Source: an uncultured Burkholderiales bacterium (lineage in GTDB: Bacteria > Pseudomonadota > Gammaproteobacteria > Burkholderiales > Burkholderiaceae_C). Taken from it: 64,000 nt of DNA. The stretch is from contig CAIRBP010000004.1 in the NCBI GenBank assembly GCA_903876885.1, positions 91,207-155,206 on the forward strand, read 5' to 3'. A program made the position numbers and the translations under genes. This document shows positions 10,857-63,376 of this stretch, in pieces. The first letter of the stretch is position 1. Each line of letters starts with the position of its first letter. The notes beneath the pieces were generated by a model, which saw nothing but the letters and a program-made list of their open reading frames with translations, was not told the DNA's origin and ran no database searches.

Positions 10857-12694
10857 TCAATACCGCCCAAATAAGCTTCAATCACAAGCGGATTTTCTCT
10901 CACCTTTGCTGGATCACCAGACGCAATTTGGTTACCAAAATCCATGACGACCAATTCATCTACGAGACCCATCACAAAATCCATATCATGTTCAACAATT
11001 AAAATGCTGATTCCTTGATCTTCACTAAGGCGTTTTAGCGTTACTTGTAGCTCCTCTTTTTCGAAATGCCTAAGACCGGCTGCTGGTTCGTCGAGTAACA
11101 ACAAAATGGGATCAGATGCTAGTGCTCGAGCTATCTCAAGAAGTCTTTGCTGGCCTAGCGAGAGCGTATTTGCATTTTGATGGGCTACCTCCTCTAGTCC
11201 TACATCTCTCAAACAAGAGTAGCCGATTTCCCTCAACGCAGACTCTTCTTTTTGATTCGTTCTAAAAATCGCGCCTAACCAACTAGAGCGGGCTCTTAAA
11301 TGCGCGCCAATTAGGACGTTATCTAACACCGTCATTTGTCCAATTAAGCGCACGTGTTGGAAAGTTCTTCCCATTCCAAGCTTAGATCTCAATCGGGCGG
11401 GAAGCTTTTGCACCTCTTGACCTAAGAACTCGATTCGCCCAGATGAAACGGGTAAAACACCACTGATTAAATTAAAAAGCGTGCTCTTACCAGCGCCATT
11501 CGGCCCAATCAGTCCAACAATTCGTGAAGCGTGAACCTCAAAACTTAAGCCGTTCACAGCTTTTAATCCTCCAAAAGACTTGTGTGCTCCCACAACCTTC
11601 AAAACTACGCGATCTTGCTTTGTTATTGACCTTTGGCTCAATCTAGCGAATTCTTCTCGTTCACCCTTGAGTAGTCTTGATGTAGTTGACGACAAAGATC
11701 TAGAATTTACAATCCATTGGGGCAATAGGGGATTAATTACGTGTTCTACCCAATACCACACACCCTGGGGAGATTTCTGTAGTAAGACAATTAAGAGCAC
11801 GCCTGAGACGATTACTTCGTAGTTTCCGCTTTGCCCAAGCAAAGTGGGAAGTATGTTTTGAAGCCAATTGTTGAGGAGCGTAATAAGCACTGCACCCACA
11901 ACTGCGCCTCCCAAATACCCGACTCCGCCGATAACGGCCATGATTAAATAACCTATACCTGCTGTCAAATTAAAGGCGGTCGGGTTTACCGCGCGCTGCA
12001 AATGAGCATAAAGCCAACCAGACATAGAGGCTAAAACTGCAGCCAAAACGAAGGCTAATAATTTGTATTTCATGGTTTCAACCCCACAGGATTCGGCCAT
12101 GAGGACTCCGCCCTTAAGTGCTTTAAACACCCGACCAGTTCGAGAGTTAAGTAAATGGTGTAGAGCTACTGTGCACCATACGACGAAAAACCAAATCAAA
12201 ACAAAGTTATCTCGTCCACTGGCTAAATCAATACCCAAAAAGTTAATAGGTGGGATGGCAGTGATACCGTCAAACTTACCTAAATAGTCCATATTGCCAA
12301 ATAGATAAAAAAGACTAATTCCCCATGCGATAGTACAAAGTGGCAAGAAGTGACCTGATAAACCAAGCGTGATCCACCCCAGTGCATAGGCAGTGATAAC
12401 AGTAATAACTATTCCAGCAAGTAGTCCAAGCCAAGGCGAAATACCCCAAGTTGTAGACAAATACGCACTGGCATAAGCACCTAATCCTACAAAAGCAGCT
12501 TGACCAAAAGATGTCATTCCCGTCACACCAGTTAGGAGCACAAGTCCAAGGGCTACCAAACTGTATAGTCCAACGTAGTTAGCAAGTGTGATCCAAAACT
12601 CTGGCACCGGGATAAAGTTCAAAAGGACTATCAATGTACTAATAGTCAACCCAAAGCGAACGGACAACGGAGTTGAGATAGGAGTCAATTTCAC
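10853..12694 (-). CDS. Fused LivM-like permease and LivG-like ATP-binding protein
   Basis: N-terminal LivM-type permease (TGVTGMTSFGQAAFVGLGAYASAYL). C-terminal ATPase (IGPNGAGKSTLFNLISG, LSLGQQRLLEIARALA, LLLLDEPAAGL). Confidence 0.9.
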   Translation of the reverse strand: MKLTPISTPLSVRFGLTISTLIVLLNFIPVPEFWITLANYVGLYSLVALGLVLLTGVTGMTSFGQAAFVGLGAYASAYLSTTWGISPWLGLLAGIVITVITAYALGWITLGLSGHFLPLCTIAWGISLFYLFGNMDYLGKFDGITAIPPINFLGIDLASGRDNFVLIWFFVVWCTVALHHLLNSRTGRVFKALKGGVLMAESCGVETMKYKLLAFVLAAVLASMSGWLYAHLQRAVNPTAFNLTAGIGYLIMAVIGGVGYLGGAVVGAVLITLLNNWLQNILPTLLGQSGNYEVIVSGVLLIVLLQKSPQGVWYWVEHVINPLLPQWIVNSRSLSSTTSRLLKGEREEFARLSQRSITKQDRVVLKVVGAHKSFGGLKAVNGLSFEVHASRIVGLIGPNGAGKSTLFNLISGVLPVSSGRIEFLGQEVQKLPARLRSKLGMGRTFQHVRLIGQMTVLDNVLIGAHLRARSSWLGAIFRTNQKEESALREIGYSCLRDVGLEEVAHQNANTLSLGQQRLLEIARALASDPILLLLDEPAAGLRHFEKEELQVTLKRLSEDQGISILIVEHDMDFVMGLVDELVVMDFGNQIASGDPAKVRENPLVIEAYLGGIE

Positions 12695-13800
12695 AGCGAG
12701 TCGTCATCCTCTAAGAGCTGGGGATGGGTAAGTGAGCGCCACATTAAGACTGGAATGATAAGCGAGAACACCCAGACTTCTTTGTAAGCACTAGCCCAAA
12801 AAGAGATGTAGGCTTCCATCAAACCCACCCAAATTGCACCCGCTGCAGCAAGAGGGTAAGCTGCCAATCCGCCAAGAATTGCACCGACAAAACCTTTCAA
12901 ACCAATTATGAATCCAGAATCATAATAAATCGTTGTAATAGGTCCGATCAAAATCCCAGAAAAAGCCCCCAAACAAGCTGCCAGCAAAAAAGAGAGTTGA
13001 CCAGCACGCTTGACTTTAATACCCATCAAACTAGCACCCAAACGGTTGATCGCAGTGGCTCTCAAAGCCTTACCTGTCATTGAGTAGTGAAAAAATACAG
13101 AGAAACTAACCATGATGATTGCAGATGAAATTACAACAAAAAGGCTTTGCCCACTCATGGATAGAGCACCCCAATCTAAACGAATATCAAGCATTGGCTT
13201 TGAGCGTCCGCCCTCAGCCCCAAACATCCATAGACCAAGTCCCATCAAACTTAGGTGCAACGCTACTGAGACTATCAAGAGCACCAATATGCTCGCGTCA
13301 GCGATAGGTTCGAAAACCGTTTTATAAAGCATTGGACCCAAGGGGGCTACGACCATCAATGTCAAGAGGGCTTGAGTTCCTAAACTTAAATTTGAAAATG
13401 AATATGCTGTACTTAACTGCAACAAAACAGTTAACAGTGCAAAAGGATATAAGATGTATTGAGCAAAACAAAATGCTAGGGGTTTATTTGATTTAAAAAA
13501 TCCTACAACTTGTTTAGATTGTAAATTGGGTGGATTTAAATTAAATTTTTTATAAAATTGAAAAGATTCAATTAAGAAAATATAAATACCCAGCACAATT
13601 TGAAGATAAATCACCACTGGGAAACTGTTAATCTGAAGTGCGGCAATCGTCAACGCTCCGTAAGTAACCATCTCGCCTTGCGGGATGAAAATAACTCTCG
13701 TCACAGAGAACACAAGCACCAATCCAATAGCCAATAAAGCATAAACAGAACCAGTTACGAATCCGTCTTGAAGCAAAATTAAAGCAATTGACGAATCCAT
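12691..13800 (-). CDS. LivH-like ABC transporter permease with an extra internal membrane segment
   Basis: Terminal regions fit LivH (GSVYALLAIGLVLVFSVTRVIFIPQGEMV; GAILGGLAAYPLAAAGAIWVGLMEA). ATGA-type overlap with the LivM-LivG fusion gene. Confidence 0.8.
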   Translation of the reverse strand: MDSSIALILLQDGFVTGSVYALLAIGLVLVFSVTRVIFIPQGEMVTYGALTIAALQINSFPVVIYLQIVLGIYIFLIESFQFYKKFNLNPPNLQSKQVVGFFKSNKPLAFCFAQYILYPFALLTVLLQLSTAYSFSNLSLGTQALLTLMVVAPLGPMLYKTVFEPIADASILVLLIVSVALHLSLMGLGLWMFGAEGGRSKPMLDIRLDWGALSMSGQSLFVVISSAIIMVSFSVFFHYSMTGKALRATAINRLGASLMGIKVKRAGQLSFLLAACLGAFSGILIGPITTIYYDSGFIIGLKGFVGAILGGLAAYPLAAAGAIWVGLMEAYISFWASAYKEVWVFSLIIPVLMWRSLTHPQLLEDDDSL

Positions 13801-58254: not shown

Positions 58255-58288
58255 AGTAATCTAGCTTGCACTAAAGCTAGATTACTTT
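58255..58288 (+). terminator. Rho-independent-like terminator after the TRAP operon
   Basis: Perfect 13-bp stem AGTAATCTAGCTT / AAGCTAGATTACT with a 6-nt loop; only a short T stretch follows. Confidence 0.65.
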
Positions 58289-58538: not shown

Positions 58539-59984
58539 ATGGTTGCAACTGGCAGTAAGCAGAGAAATAAGAAAAGTAATGAATCTGGCTTAATGGCTTG
58601 GGTCAAAGGGCTTTTTAATAAGCCTGTTGGCTCGCCTCACATGATGTCATTTGAAATTGACGAACTCACTAAGAAGTTCAAAATCAATGAAGAAGCCAAA
58701 CGTTTAGGCAAAATGGGCTTGCCCGCGTTTCACGCCAAGGACTTAACCAGTGTTGAAACCGAATTACTGCGACATCTAAATGTTTTACGAGAGCAAATAT
58801 TAATTAACGCAGAAAACGAAATTGCTGCAATAGACAGACAATTCACAGACAAAGAGCATGAATTCCAAAGATTTCTCACTCAAAGTCTGAATGTAGAGTT
58901 TGAGCGCAAAGCCAGGCAAATAATGGATACCCAGGGTGCATGGCTCAAAAAATTAGCATCTAATGCAATAGCTAATATAAAAGAACTAGAGATTTTTAGA
59001 GAAGAAAATAATTTAAAGCGACAAGCCAACTACCCCGAAAAATCTCAAGCCTTCTTGCGCTACACACTTCTTTTAGTTTTGATTATTATTGAAGGATCAC
59101 TAAATGCGACCTTCTTCTCTGAAGGCGTTAGTACAGGCCTAATTGGCGGCTTTATATACGCTGCGTCATTGGCCTTAATTAATATTTCAGGATGCTTTTT
59201 TATTGGGAAAATTGGTGTCCGTTGGATCAACCATAACAAAGCATACGGCAAAATAATTGGTGGGATTAGCTTACTTGTAGCTGGACTCTTTTTAGGTGGT
59301 ATGGCATTATCTATTGCTCATATCAGGGAGGCTATGGCCGTGGGAGTCGATAACCCAACTCAGGCAGCCTGGAATATGATGCAAAGTGGTCTATGGTCAT
59401 TTAAAGACCTAACTTCATGGTTTTTAATCATGTTGACGCTAGGCTTTGGGATAGCCGCAGTTGTGGACGGTGTCTATGTAGATGATATTTACCCTGGGTA
59501 CGGCAGTATATTCAGACGAACTGAATCGGCTAAAGAGGAATTTGAATCTGAATTTGAGGAAATTCGTTACGAGCTCGAAGAGTTAAAGCAAGAAAAATTG
59601 GATTTCATCGACCAACAGCTTAATTCATGCAATGAGCTTCTTTTCTCTGTTCAAAATTTATTGGAAACTAAAAAGTCTGTCCTAAAGAAATATCAAGACA
59701 AACTCAACGATTCTGAGGTGGTGCTTTTTGCTACGATTAGAAAATTTAGATTTGAAAATGAAATAGTCAGGGAAGATGGCCTAATCCCAGCGTACTTTAA
59801 TACTATGCCATCTTTGAACCCCATCACTCTTCCCAAAATGGAGCAAGCGCGTGAATCAGCTCTCATTGGCAAATTAAATGATTTGATCAGAAATCATGAG
59901 AAGACAATCTCAAGGCAAAGAGAAGAGGTTTATCAGATATTTGAGAAATTTGTAACCCAACTCAATCACCTAAGGTACTACTAA
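58539..59984 (+). CDS. Four-TM membrane protein with cytoplasmic coiled-coil N- and C-terminal regions (locus B)
   Basis: Four hydrophobic segments (YTLLLVLIIIEGSLNATFF; LIGGFIYAASLALINISGCFF; IIGGISLLVAGLFLGGMALSI; LTSWFLIMLTLGFGIAAVVDG), flanked by long charged helical regions. Confidence 0.7.
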   Translation: MVATGSKQRNKKSNESGLMAWVKGLFNKPVGSPHMMSFEIDELTKKFKINEEAKRLGKMGLPAFHAKDLTSVETELLRHLNVLREQILINAENEIAAIDRQFTDKEHEFQRFLTQSLNVEFERKARQIMDTQGAWLKKLASNAIANIKELEIFREENNLKRQANYPEKSQAFLRYTLLLVLIIIEGSLNATFFSEGVSTGLIGGFIYAASLALINISGCFFIGKIGVRWINHNKAYGKIIGGISLLVAGLFLGGMALSIAHIREAMAVGVDNPTQAAWNMMQSGLWSFKDLTSWFLIMLTLGFGIAAVVDGVYVDDIYPGYGSIFRRTESAKEEFESEFEEIRYELEELKQEKLDFIDQQLNSCNELLFSVQNLLETKKSVLKKYQDKLNDSEVVLFATIRKFRFENEIVREDGLIPAYFNTMPSLNPITLPKMEQARESALIGKLNDLIRNHEKTISRQREEVYQIFEKFVTQLNHLRYY

Positions 59985-59991
59985 ACCGGGT

Positions 59992-60795
59992 ATGAGACGC
60001 AAAAGTAAATTAGCACAACAAAGAGCACGTAACCACACCATACTGGGGGTCGTTTTTATTTTCGCTATCGCTGCGGTGGCTGCAGGTATCGTTTGGTGGC
60101 TTGGGCAGCGTCCAGCCCCTCTAGACCCGGTAACACTTTGTCCTGCCCAGGGGCCAATCGGACACCAAGTTTTATTAGTTGATAGGACGGATCCCTTTAA
60201 CCCAGCGCAAAAGGCAGCCTTTGATAACCTAACGAAGGATTTAGTTGAGAAACTACCCGTTGGCTACTTGTTCTCCGTATTCGTTTTAGGCGATGATTTC
60301 AAAGCAGAGACCAAGCCTCTAATTGAGCTGTGTAATCCAGGCACTGGAGAAGGCAAGAGTGAATTGACGCAGAACATCAAAGCACTGCAAAATCAATACA
60401 CCAGTGGTTTTATTCAACCACTTGAAAAAGTAACCACTGAATTGCTGACCTCAGATCCAGCAAAACAGTCCCCAATCATTGAGATGCTGCAACTGGTTTA
60501 CCTGAACTCTATCCAGGCCCATAAAGCAAAAGGTCCTATTACTCTTTACGTTCTTTCGGACTTAATGCAATTCAGCCCTGCTTTGGATATGTATAAAACC
60601 ACGCCCAGCTTTGATGGGTATGACGCCACCTATACTGCCAAAAAACTTTGGGTAGATCTAGGCCTAGTTGATGTCCACGTGATCTTGTTGAATAACAATA
60701 TAAAAAATCAAAGTCCTGCGTTCATGGAGTTTTGGAATGCCTACTTCAAACGTGCAAATGCTAAATCACTAGATGTGACGAGTCTTCCCGGATAA
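59992..60795 (+). CDS. Single-TM membrane-anchored VWA-like domain protein (locus B)
   Basis: RRKSKLAQQRARNHTILGVVFIFAIAAVAAGIVWW anchor; VLLVDRTDPFNPAQKAAFDNL (candidate MIDAS-like strand); IELCNPGTGEGKSEL; ITLYVLSDLMQFSP. 7 bp downstream of the previous gene. Confidence 0.65.
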   Translation: MRRKSKLAQQRARNHTILGVVFIFAIAAVAAGIVWWLGQRPAPLDPVTLCPAQGPIGHQVLLVDRTDPFNPAQKAAFDNLTKDLVEKLPVGYLFSVFVLGDDFKAETKPLIELCNPGTGEGKSELTQNIKALQNQYTSGFIQPLEKVTTELLTSDPAKQSPIIEMLQLVYLNSIQAHKAKGPITLYVLSDLMQFSPALDMYKTTPSFDGYDATYTAKKLWVDLGLVDVHVILLNNNIKNQSPAFMEFWNAYFKRANAKSLDVTSLPG

Positions 60796-60804
60796 CCAAG
60801 CTTA

Positions 60805-61374
60805 ATGAAAGATCATTACCAAGTACTAGGCTTACTCAAAGAAGTTGATGACGTCGTTATAAAGGCGGCTTATAAAGCGCTTGCTCAAAAGTACCACCCT
60901 GACAAACATCCGGAGCAAAAAGCCGAATACAACCGCATAATGAGCGAATTAAATGAGGCATTTTCAGTACTAGGCTTTAAACACAAGCGAAAAGAATATG
61001 ACTTGAAATGGTCTAAGACCCAAGTAAAAGCCAAGCCCGCTAAAGCGAAGGCTGAACCAGCCCCCCACAAGAACAATCCCCATCCCCCTCAAAGCCACGA
61101 ATCTGAACATTCACATAGGCATGAATCCAAGGAGACTGAATCCACAAAGCAAGCTAAGGCTAGCAAAGCAGAGTTCGAGGAAATTCTGAAAAAATTAGAG
61201 CAAAATCAAATAGATGAATACCAATTGATAAATCTATTCGAAACTACTTTTTCATTGAAAATAGAAATTTCAAGTGGTTACATAAATAACTATTCCTACA
61301 TGAAAGATGATAAAAGACACATTGTTAACTTTGAAAAAATCAAACTTGAATTGATCAATCACTGGACTAAATAA
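60805..61374 (+). CDS. J-domain (DnaJ-like) protein (locus B)
   Basis: KDHYQVLGLLKEVDDVVIKAAYKALAQKYHPDKHPEQKAEYNRIMSELNEAFSVLGFKHKRKEYD, with HPD motif intact. Confidence 0.9.
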   Translation: MKDHYQVLGLLKEVDDVVIKAAYKALAQKYHPDKHPEQKAEYNRIMSELNEAFSVLGFKHKRKEYDLKWSKTQVKAKPAKAKAEPAPHKNNPHPPQSHESEHSHRHESKETESTKQAKASKAEFEEILKKLEQNQIDEYQLINLFETTFSLKIEISSGYINNYSYMKDDKRHIVNFEKIKLELINHWTK

Positions 61375-61395
61375 TTTTCTACGAACCTACCCCTT

Positions 61396-62175
61396 ATGCC
61401 CTATCCATTTGAATACGCTGTAGTCAATAAATCTGACGAGAGGTTGTTTAAAGAAAAACTGCCCCACATAAGCTCCTCAATACCAGAGCTTTTCAGAACT
61501 ATGAGTATTGCTTATAGGAGTATCGAGCAACGCAACATTTACGGCAAATATGGTGGTTTAAGGAGAGATAACGGCTTTGAGACAGCACTCAATTTATTAT
61601 GGGTTGCCATGCTCAATGACAAAGTAATTGGCATTGACGCCGATATAACTACTTATATAGACACCCTCAGAGCGCTTTGCCTGAAGTGGTATAAATTCGG
61701 TAACAGCTTGGATGCCTGTTTATTCTTTGGTTACTATTTTTACTTGTTCAACAGCCAATCCAGATTCATTATTCGGGATCAAATCAAAGATTTAAAGTTT
61801 TTAATTGATAATGCAAACCAAACCACCCAAGACCCAAGCATTTTGGCTTTCATCAGTCCTAGCTATTCCAGTGCTTGGTACCAAACTGACGACGGGATCG
61901 GAGATAAACTATCAAATATCTTTATTAAATCCGGGGATTTATCCAAGGTTGGTTTGCCATTACCTGGGTATCAGATCACTTTTGGACAAACCTATCAGTA
62001 CGATCTTCGCGCACCGCATTTTATAAGTGCGGAACAAATAGAGAAACCAATTATTCAAGATAATAAAGTCATCATTACGTGTCCAAAATGCAAGCAACGC
62101 TGCAGAGGAACTAAATTCGAACACATCGAGATGACATGTCCTAAGTGTTCACAAAAGTGGGCTCAGCATATTTAA
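61396..62175 (+). CDS. Hypothetical protein with C-terminal zinc ribbon (locus B)
   Basis: C-terminal CPKCKQRCRGTKFEHIEMTCPKCSQKW (CX2C-X15-CX2C); N-terminal domain unrecognised. Confidence 0.7.
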   Translation: MPYPFEYAVVNKSDERLFKEKLPHISSSIPELFRTMSIAYRSIEQRNIYGKYGGLRRDNGFETALNLLWVAMLNDKVIGIDADITTYIDTLRALCLKWYKFGNSLDACLFFGYYFYLFNSQSRFIIRDQIKDLKFLIDNANQTTQDPSILAFISPSYSSAWYQTDDGIGDKLSNIFIKSGDLSKVGLPLPGYQITFGQTYQYDLRAPHFISAEQIEKPIIQDNKVIITCPKCKQRCRGTKFEHIEMTCPKCSQKWAQHI

Positions 62176-62209: not shown

Positions 62210-63376
62210 TTAAGCCACTACGTTAATCCACTGCCCCTGAGCAGGTGCGCTCATTAAATTACGCTGAATATCTTGTAGTGCAGTTTGCAGTGTCGAGGCA
62301 GTAACCGTTGATGTTAATCCCATAGAAGCAAAAAGGCTATTAGCACTTTGAATAAGCGAATCTAGACCTGCAGTCGCCCCACTGGCAATTGCAACGGCGG
62401 ATTGCTCAGCATTATGGGACTGTGTAACGACCAACATTTCAATCATTGACTGAACGCTTGAGTAGACTCGGCTAACGACCCAGCCGTGTACGTTAGATAT
62501 GTTTTGAGCTGTTTCTTGCTGCTGGGCAGTAGTCGCTGCTGAATTAGAGCCACTCCCCACAATATTAACTTGAGCAGAATTAGCTTGACTGCCTGATAGG
62601 TTTGAACTTGAGGTCTCTAAATTAGAGACGTATTGAGTATTAGTCGAATTTACACCTGTCAATGAAATACCGCCATCTAAGGGCTGCGGTGCGGCAGAGG
62701 AAGTAGCGGCATTTTCAACCCTTACTGGATATGGGCTTAAGGGAGTTTGGGGGTTAGTTACAGGTAACGCATTCAAATTACTGGCTTGAACGGGGGATGC
62801 TAATAATTCTTGCGAAGACAGATTCGTTTGTGATTGAACCGTAAAAATGAGTGAGTTTACAAAGGAGTTAATTTGCGCACCAGCCGCATCAACCATCGAG
62901 CCTGGTGTAAGTTGATTAGAGAGCAAAGCATTAACATTACTACTAGCACCACGGGAGATAACACCACTCATTGCTTGCGAGTTTGCAAGCTGATCATTCA
63001 AAGCTTGAACAATTGAGTTCTTGATAACAGAGTAAATTCTTGGAGAAACAACAGTGGGGTCTTGGCTGCTTTGGTGAGTAAGCTCAGGCGTATTGATAAG
63101 TTGCGTTTCATTGACCGCGTTGCTAGCGTAATTACGCTGAACTGTATTACTATCAGCCCCCAAACTAGCCATCAACGCACCGGGACTTGTTGAGTTGGAG
63201 ATGGCCTGACCTCCGGTGTTAGAGAGGTATGAATTGATTACTGAAGTTCGCACCCCAGGGGCACTAGGCTCCATATTGATTACATCAAGTCCCTGAGTGA
63301 GTGACCGCGAGGACATGAAGGTCTGGGCAAGCATAGGGTTGCTAGATGACCTAGAGTACGGAGGGATGACGTTCAT
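62210..63376 (-). CDS. Ser/Asn/Gln/Ala-rich low-complexity hypothetical protein
   Basis: 388-aa ORF with strongly biased composition; ends in QGQWINVVA. Confidence 0.6.
   Translation of the reverse strand: MNVIPPYSRSSSNPMLAQTFMSSRSLTQGLDVINMEPSAPGVRTSVINSYLSNTGGQAISNSTSPGALMASLGADSNTVQRNYASNAVNETQLINTPELTHQSSQDPTVVSPRIYSVIKNSIVQALNDQLANSQAMSGVISRGASSNVNALLSNQLTPGSMVDAAGAQINSFVNSLIFTVQSQTNLSSQELLASPVQASNLNALPVTNPQTPLSPYPVRVENAATSSAAPQPLDGGISLTGVNSTNTQYVSNLETSSSNLSGSQANSAQVNIVGSGSNSAATTAQQQETAQNISNVHGWVVSRVYSSVQSMIEMLVVTQSHNAEQSAVAIASGATAGLDSLIQSANSLFASMGLTSTVTASTLQTALQDIQRNLMSAPAQGQWINVVA

Follow-up and report, generated by a model that had tools for sequence, protein, structure and literature searches.

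The A–B–J–Z operon and its products

The window, by which we mean the whole 64,000-nucleotide stretch of DNA analysed here, carries a four-gene operon whose members we refer to as A, B, J and Z:

58255..58286, no strand: hairpin with a 13-bp stem, between the TRAP genes and gene A
58539..59984, plus strand: gene A, 481-aa four-transmembrane (TM) protein with cytoplasmic coiled-coil N- and C-terminal regions
59992..60795, plus strand: gene B, 267-aa single-TM protein with a predicted periplasmic VWA-fold domain
60805..61374, plus strand: gene J, 189-aa J-domain protein with an intact HPD, a linker rich in His and a conserved segment at the C-terminus; lineage-specific partner
61396..62175, plus strand: gene Z, 259-aa soluble protein with a C-terminal two-CPxC zinc ribbon; lineage-specific partner

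The ORF listing of the window reproduced the coordinates and strands given in the initial annotation, with 7, 9 and 21 bp between the four co-directional genes, and with a convergent gene on the 3' side (62210–63376, minus strand). The convergent gene encodes a Ser/Ala/Asn-rich protein of 388 aa with a conserved C-terminus, for which no match was found in Pfam or NCBIfam, and it also lies 3' of the operon at loci L004 and L007. The terminator reported on the 5' side was upheld in part: there is indeed a hairpin, but only the minus strand carries a T-rich tail, and the hairpin is therefore not a clear plus-strand terminator.

TM segments were predicted in the gene A product at about residues 170–195, 200–225, 236–262 and 290–315, and because Lys and Arg residues are found in the TM2–TM3 loop with almost none in the outer loops, both coiled-coil ends are expected to be cytoplasmic, in agreement with the earlier description of a 4-TM protein with large cytoplasmic helical regions. 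An alignment of homologues identified invariant residues in or near the membrane (E185, N189, N215, H261 and R263), as well as a D316-x-x-P319-G320 motif after TM4 in which D316, P319 and G320 are invariant. The predicted structure of A was poor (pLDDT 54) and a fold search with this model returned coiled-coil noise only.

The single TM segment predicted for B (residues 16–34) sits behind a basic N-terminus, which places the C-terminal domain in the periplasm as had been proposed. The accompanying VWA-like assignment was confirmed by a Foldseek search with a model of modest quality (pLDDT 66), in which the top matches were mostly VWA or integrin I domains with probabilities of up to 1.00. The homologue alignment showed that C50, C114, D64, D67, S189-D190 and F247-W248 are invariant, of which C50 and C114 might form a disulfide, and D64, D67 and S189-D190 resemble a partial MIDAS pattern. 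When B was checked against the MIDAS arrangement (DxSxS, T, D), D64-x-[ST]66, T126 and D190 were found to be conserved and the second Ser of DxSxS to be absent. B is therefore like other VWA-domain proteins in its predicted fold and its conserved D64, S/T66 and D190, but differs from them in having an incomplete MIDAS and an additional conserved Cys pair, and no Pfam VWA model reaches it.

The J protein matched the Pfam DnaJ model (1.1e-16) with the HPD at residues 31–33, confirming the intact motif noted previously. No TM segments were predicted in J or Z, and both are expected to be soluble. The Z C-terminus has two CPxC pairs, with all Pfam matches falling below the cut-off, and searches of Pfam, NCBIfam, PADLOC and PHROGs returned nothing above cut-off for A, B or Z.

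Comparison of relatives L004 and L007 gave dN/dS values of 0.027 for A, 0.064 for B and 0.047 for Z, indicating strong purifying selection and showing that these are real, constrained genes. Synonymous divergence is saturated in the same comparison, yet the A–B–J–Z order and short gaps are preserved in all three carriers, and the operon lies at a conserved chromosomal place in both L004 and L007.

Distribution of the A–B pair

Homologues of A are scattered through the Pseudomonadota, and were found in 3/399 genomes of the same order using a single-sequence search, and a profile search, in which some matches were weak, recovered them from 7/369 genomes of the class and 12/399 of a phylum sample. 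They were also found in two further orders (15/249 and 8/140 genomes) and in 24 plasmid records from Rhizobium, Sinorhizobium, Microvirga, Paracoccus and Tistrella, 11 of which are conjugative. There was no A homologue in phage records or in viral contigs, the latter searched with three A queries. With B as the query we recovered the same 24 plasmid records, as judged by the genus breakdown, with A and B adjacent in every one. Among the fetched loci, B adjoins every clear A except at L038, where the contig ends, and at L049, a distant paralogue in the window's own genome. From the sequences compared, A–B is a previously unnamed membrane-protein pair, the two genes being neighbours in essentially every homologue found.

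At L049 (G000:C53, 8722–14755) the distant A-like gene (418 aa) was matched at E 6e-12, and the next gene, of 259 aa, occupies the B position but gave no convincing profile match as a B paralogue (hhalign probability 7.6%); the cluster around the A-like gene also includes LpoB, Sel1-like and, by eye, YcfL-like genes. We also note that in L042 and L044, from two genomes of one genus, A–B lies a few kb from genes resembling a Tat translocase operon by eye.

Conservation of the neighbourhood across genomes had been suggested as a check on the initial annotation, and this was seen for A–B but not for the set with J and Z, which is found only in the window, L004 and L007, the latter two being the closest relatives of the window. 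At L005 and L006, A–B occurs in other chromosomal surroundings with J and Z absent beside it. Elsewhere in the order, only one of the 399 genomes holds a weak relative of Z, in an unrelated context and with a C-terminal half that is 29% identical (L052, 1227–1949, minus strand); this is a TM protein which adjoins a RepA-like ATPase (by eye). L006 also encodes a 203-aa protein beside A–B (12321–12932) which by eye is ParB/sulfiredoxin-type nuclease-like.

A stator-like pair beside A–B in relatives

A–B is directly followed by two further genes, C and D, at 29 of the loci compared, which is most of the homologous loci. D has a Glu at the same TM position in 28/28 frames recovered from these loci (the L085 D frame was left out), and most of the D proteins tested have a C-terminal OmpA-type periplasmic domain (Pfam OmpA). 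The D proteins of the A–B–C–D loci hence combine the TM acidic residue and OmpA-type domain that we used to recognise ZorB-like subunits, and the Paracoccus D matches ZorB models at 1.5e-27. In the C protein two TM segments each contain an invariant Thr, within the motifs GFLFT and ST[IV].G and at the pore positions expected from MotA/TolQ/ExbB, and a long coiled-coil tail comes after them. The full C profile matched the ZorA chain 8vvn with an E-value of 8e-5, which may in part reflect coiled-coil similarity, but a profile restricted to the TM segments matched no stator structure, making the stator assignment of C likely but not proven. Considering the residue pattern, the tail and the D partner, C is likely to be a ZorA/MotA-type channel subunit, and C–D looks like a MotAB/ZorAB-type stator. 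A PDB sequence search with the A, B and D profiles gave no meaningful match.

The initial annotation had likened the 4-TM and single-TM proteins of the window loosely to ZorA and ZorB. A stator-like pair does exist at the relatives, but it is the C–D pair that follows A–B and not A–B itself, and the window A and B showed no sequence match to the MotA/TolQ/ExbB and MotB/TolR/ExbD families.

A tree constructed from A and B grouped the window with L004–L007 (100/100), with this clade nested with the A–B–C–D locus L037 (99/95) and near L016/L017 (91/86). Searches for C and D in the window's own genome assembly (G000) and in the L004–L007 genomes found neither gene, though absence from G000 alone is weak evidence as this assembly is only 68% complete. 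As the window clade nests among A–B–C–D loci, C–D was probably lost and the J and zinc-ribbon genes added; the loss of C–D is the simplest reading of the tree.

Nucleases, DNA pumps and mobile elements

An SNase-family gene lies within 1.2 kb of A–B–C–D, in various orientations, at 11/29 loci. Using as background either the 23 SNase genes found in 44 Mb across eight host genomes or the density on four plasmids, the chance of such a neighbour is 0.2–0.8% per locus, giving a binomial probability of <1e-15 (computed with 27 loci), and the enrichment was retained after reduction to 18 lineages (6e-11 or lower). A stretch resembling a signal peptide opens several of these genes, and the neighbouring SNase-family nucleases are therefore probably exported. 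One complete A–B–C–D–SNase operon is found on plasmid pRltTA1B of Rhizobium leguminosarum TA1 (CP053208, 147007–152327). At three more loci a nuclease domain is fused to the C-terminus of D, with an SNase domain in L045 and GmrSD_C/HNH-type domains in L043 and L096, and given the topology of MotB-type proteins these would be expected to face the periplasm. By the tests used, 15/29 A–B–C–D loci have no nuclease next door, and the window operon includes no nuclease gene. We regard the A–B pairing and the nuclease association, taken by themselves, as highly probable.

At three loci with A–B only, the next gene encodes a VirD4/TraG-type DNA pump, identified by Pfam in L040 and L048 and by sequence similarity in L090, where a relaxase-like ORF (by eye) comes after it:

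L040 2347–4948, L048 4080–6693 and L090 5856–8544: A–B plus VirD4/TraG-type coupling ATPase

Other flanking genes include an integrase adjoining L016 and L045, a resolvase (by eye) adjoining L037 and L043, a type I methyltransferase beside L039, and a DUF4011 helicase-nuclease known to PADLOC beside L050. The neighbour tables and seven selected flanking proteins were examined, and several other flanking candidates had no PADLOC match. The presence of mobile and defence genes near some loci is suggestive only, hinting at a role in defence.

A proposed mechanism and its rivals

Our preferred explanation is that A–B is the part that senses or scaffolds in a new envelope system which is Zorya-like and probably targets DNA, and that in the window it has been redeployed with an Hsp70 co-chaperone; we give this whole layered reading a probability of about 0.45. 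Pairing, topology, VWA fold, co-occurrence and fusions make up the layer of it that is based on sequence, and from there we infer the remaining mechanism. A–B would be an obligately paired inner-membrane complex, with A as the anchor of long cytoplasmic coiled coils and with the VWA ligand-binding domain of B held in the periplasm. In the ancestral system this domain might sense or dock onto a periplasmic target, such as incoming DNA or its injection apparatus, with A relaying the signal to the cytoplasm via its coiled coils and the pair gating a proton-driven, stator-like C–D motor, while a peptidoglycan-anchored D would carry, or work beside, a nuclease that cleaves DNA on its way in across the envelope. 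The window lineage would have lost both C–D and the nuclease, and A–B would there most likely act as a membrane sensor or scaffold whose signal reaches the cytoplasm when J recruits Hsp70, with Z perhaps a further zinc-binding adaptor or effector. The envelope-spanning complex originally suggested and its likeness to ZorA/ZorB were good leads, and that interpretation is partly supported. The link to defence is circumstantial and comes from the nuclease association and the mobile or defence-gene contexts seen in relatives. A more specific version is tentative and less likely than not, namely that A–B–C–D, with or without a nuclease, is an envelope defence of a new class, driven by protons, in which a periplasmic VWA sensor pair detects DNA entry and a nuclease mounted on the peptidoglycan-anchored stator subunit, or working with it, cuts the DNA in the periplasm; in the window the sensor pair would have been rewired so as to work with an Hsp70 co-chaperone.

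The peptidoglycan-type OmpA domain of D, and the clustering of the A-like gene of L049 with the gene for the peptidoglycan-synthase activator LpoB, are also what might be expected if A–B (and C–D) formed an envelope-maintenance or stress complex, a stator-type machine moving or sensing peptidoglycan, with A–B and J ensuring that envelope proteins stay folded in the window lineage and the SNase neighbours serving to scavenge nutrients. The strong purifying selection and the conserved location on the L004 and L007 chromosomes fit such housekeeping as well as they fit defence. However, the very patchy spread of A (3/399 genomes in the order and 12/399 in the phylum sample), the frequent plasmid location, the integrases beside L016 and L045 and the D–nuclease fusions would all be unusual for a housekeeping machine, and we consider this explanation rather unlikely. 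It is improbable, too, that A–B is an accessory of DNA transfer, built up around either a VirD4-type coupling ATPase or a stator, which helps DNA across the envelope or blocks its entry (entry exclusion): the VirD4/TraG genes right after A–B in L040 and L048, the similar gene and relaxase-like ORF in L090, and the plasmid-borne, often conjugative (11/24) homologues point this way, but no transfer gene lies beside A–B in the window or at most C–D loci, and the coupling-protein loci are a small and divergent part of the family in the A+B tree.

A further alternative concerns J and Z, which might be functionally unrelated passengers co-transcribed with A–B in one small clade. L005 and L006 have A–B without either gene, and the sole other Z-like sequence in the order, with its 29%-identical C-terminal half, has an unrelated context, but the retention of gene order and short gaps in three genomes despite saturated synonymous divergence argues against passengers. 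We consider this alternative quite improbable.

Comparison with known systems

Motors of the stator type drive flagella and nutrient uptake, and in Zorya they drive defence against phage. The likeness to MotAB, TolQR and ExbBD is limited to the loci with C–D, and consists of a two-gene layout, an acidic residue in the single TM segment of the B-type subunit and a Thr pair in two TM segments of the A-type subunit, whereas the window A and B match none of these families and a sequence search with the TM-only profile of C brought up no stator structure.

Zorya consists of ZorA–ZorB plus cytoplasmic effectors (PMC11890865); these are ZorC/D/E or ZorF/G, with ZorE targeting DNA within the cell. The A–B–C–D loci resemble it in having a stator-like pair, the coiled-coil tail of C, the TM acidic residue and OmpA/peptidoglycan-type domain of D, and an associated nuclease. 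They are nevertheless not Zorya because the extra A–B pair has no counterpart in the system as described (PMC11890865), and in contrast to ZorE their nuclease domains are on the predicted periplasmic side of D or in proteins with signal peptides. The window operon itself can be ruled out as Zorya, as A, B, J and Z do not match the PADLOC Zor models, there being no ZorA or ZorB match, and it has neither C–D nor a nuclease. It does show the A–B half surviving without the motor, which suggests that A–B is separable and could be tested alone, and the A–B–C–D family offers short, complete operons that are open to experiment.

SNIPE is a membrane nuclease in which one protein combines a cytoplasmic GIY-YIG domain with DUF4041 (PMC13190303). 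The system proposed here would likewise meet its target at the inner membrane while the DNA is coming in, but no homology to SNIPE was found and its nuclease is proposed to lie on the periplasmic side. A literature search covering sources other than subscription journals and preprints found no VWA/OmpA/MotA/nuclease defence operon. The stator-like and nuclease parts are thus of known kinds, with the A–B pair and the combination not found in the family libraries and literature searched, and a stator-like pair coupled to a VWA membrane pair and predicted periplasm-facing nucleases would extend motor-driven immunity to periplasmic DNA.
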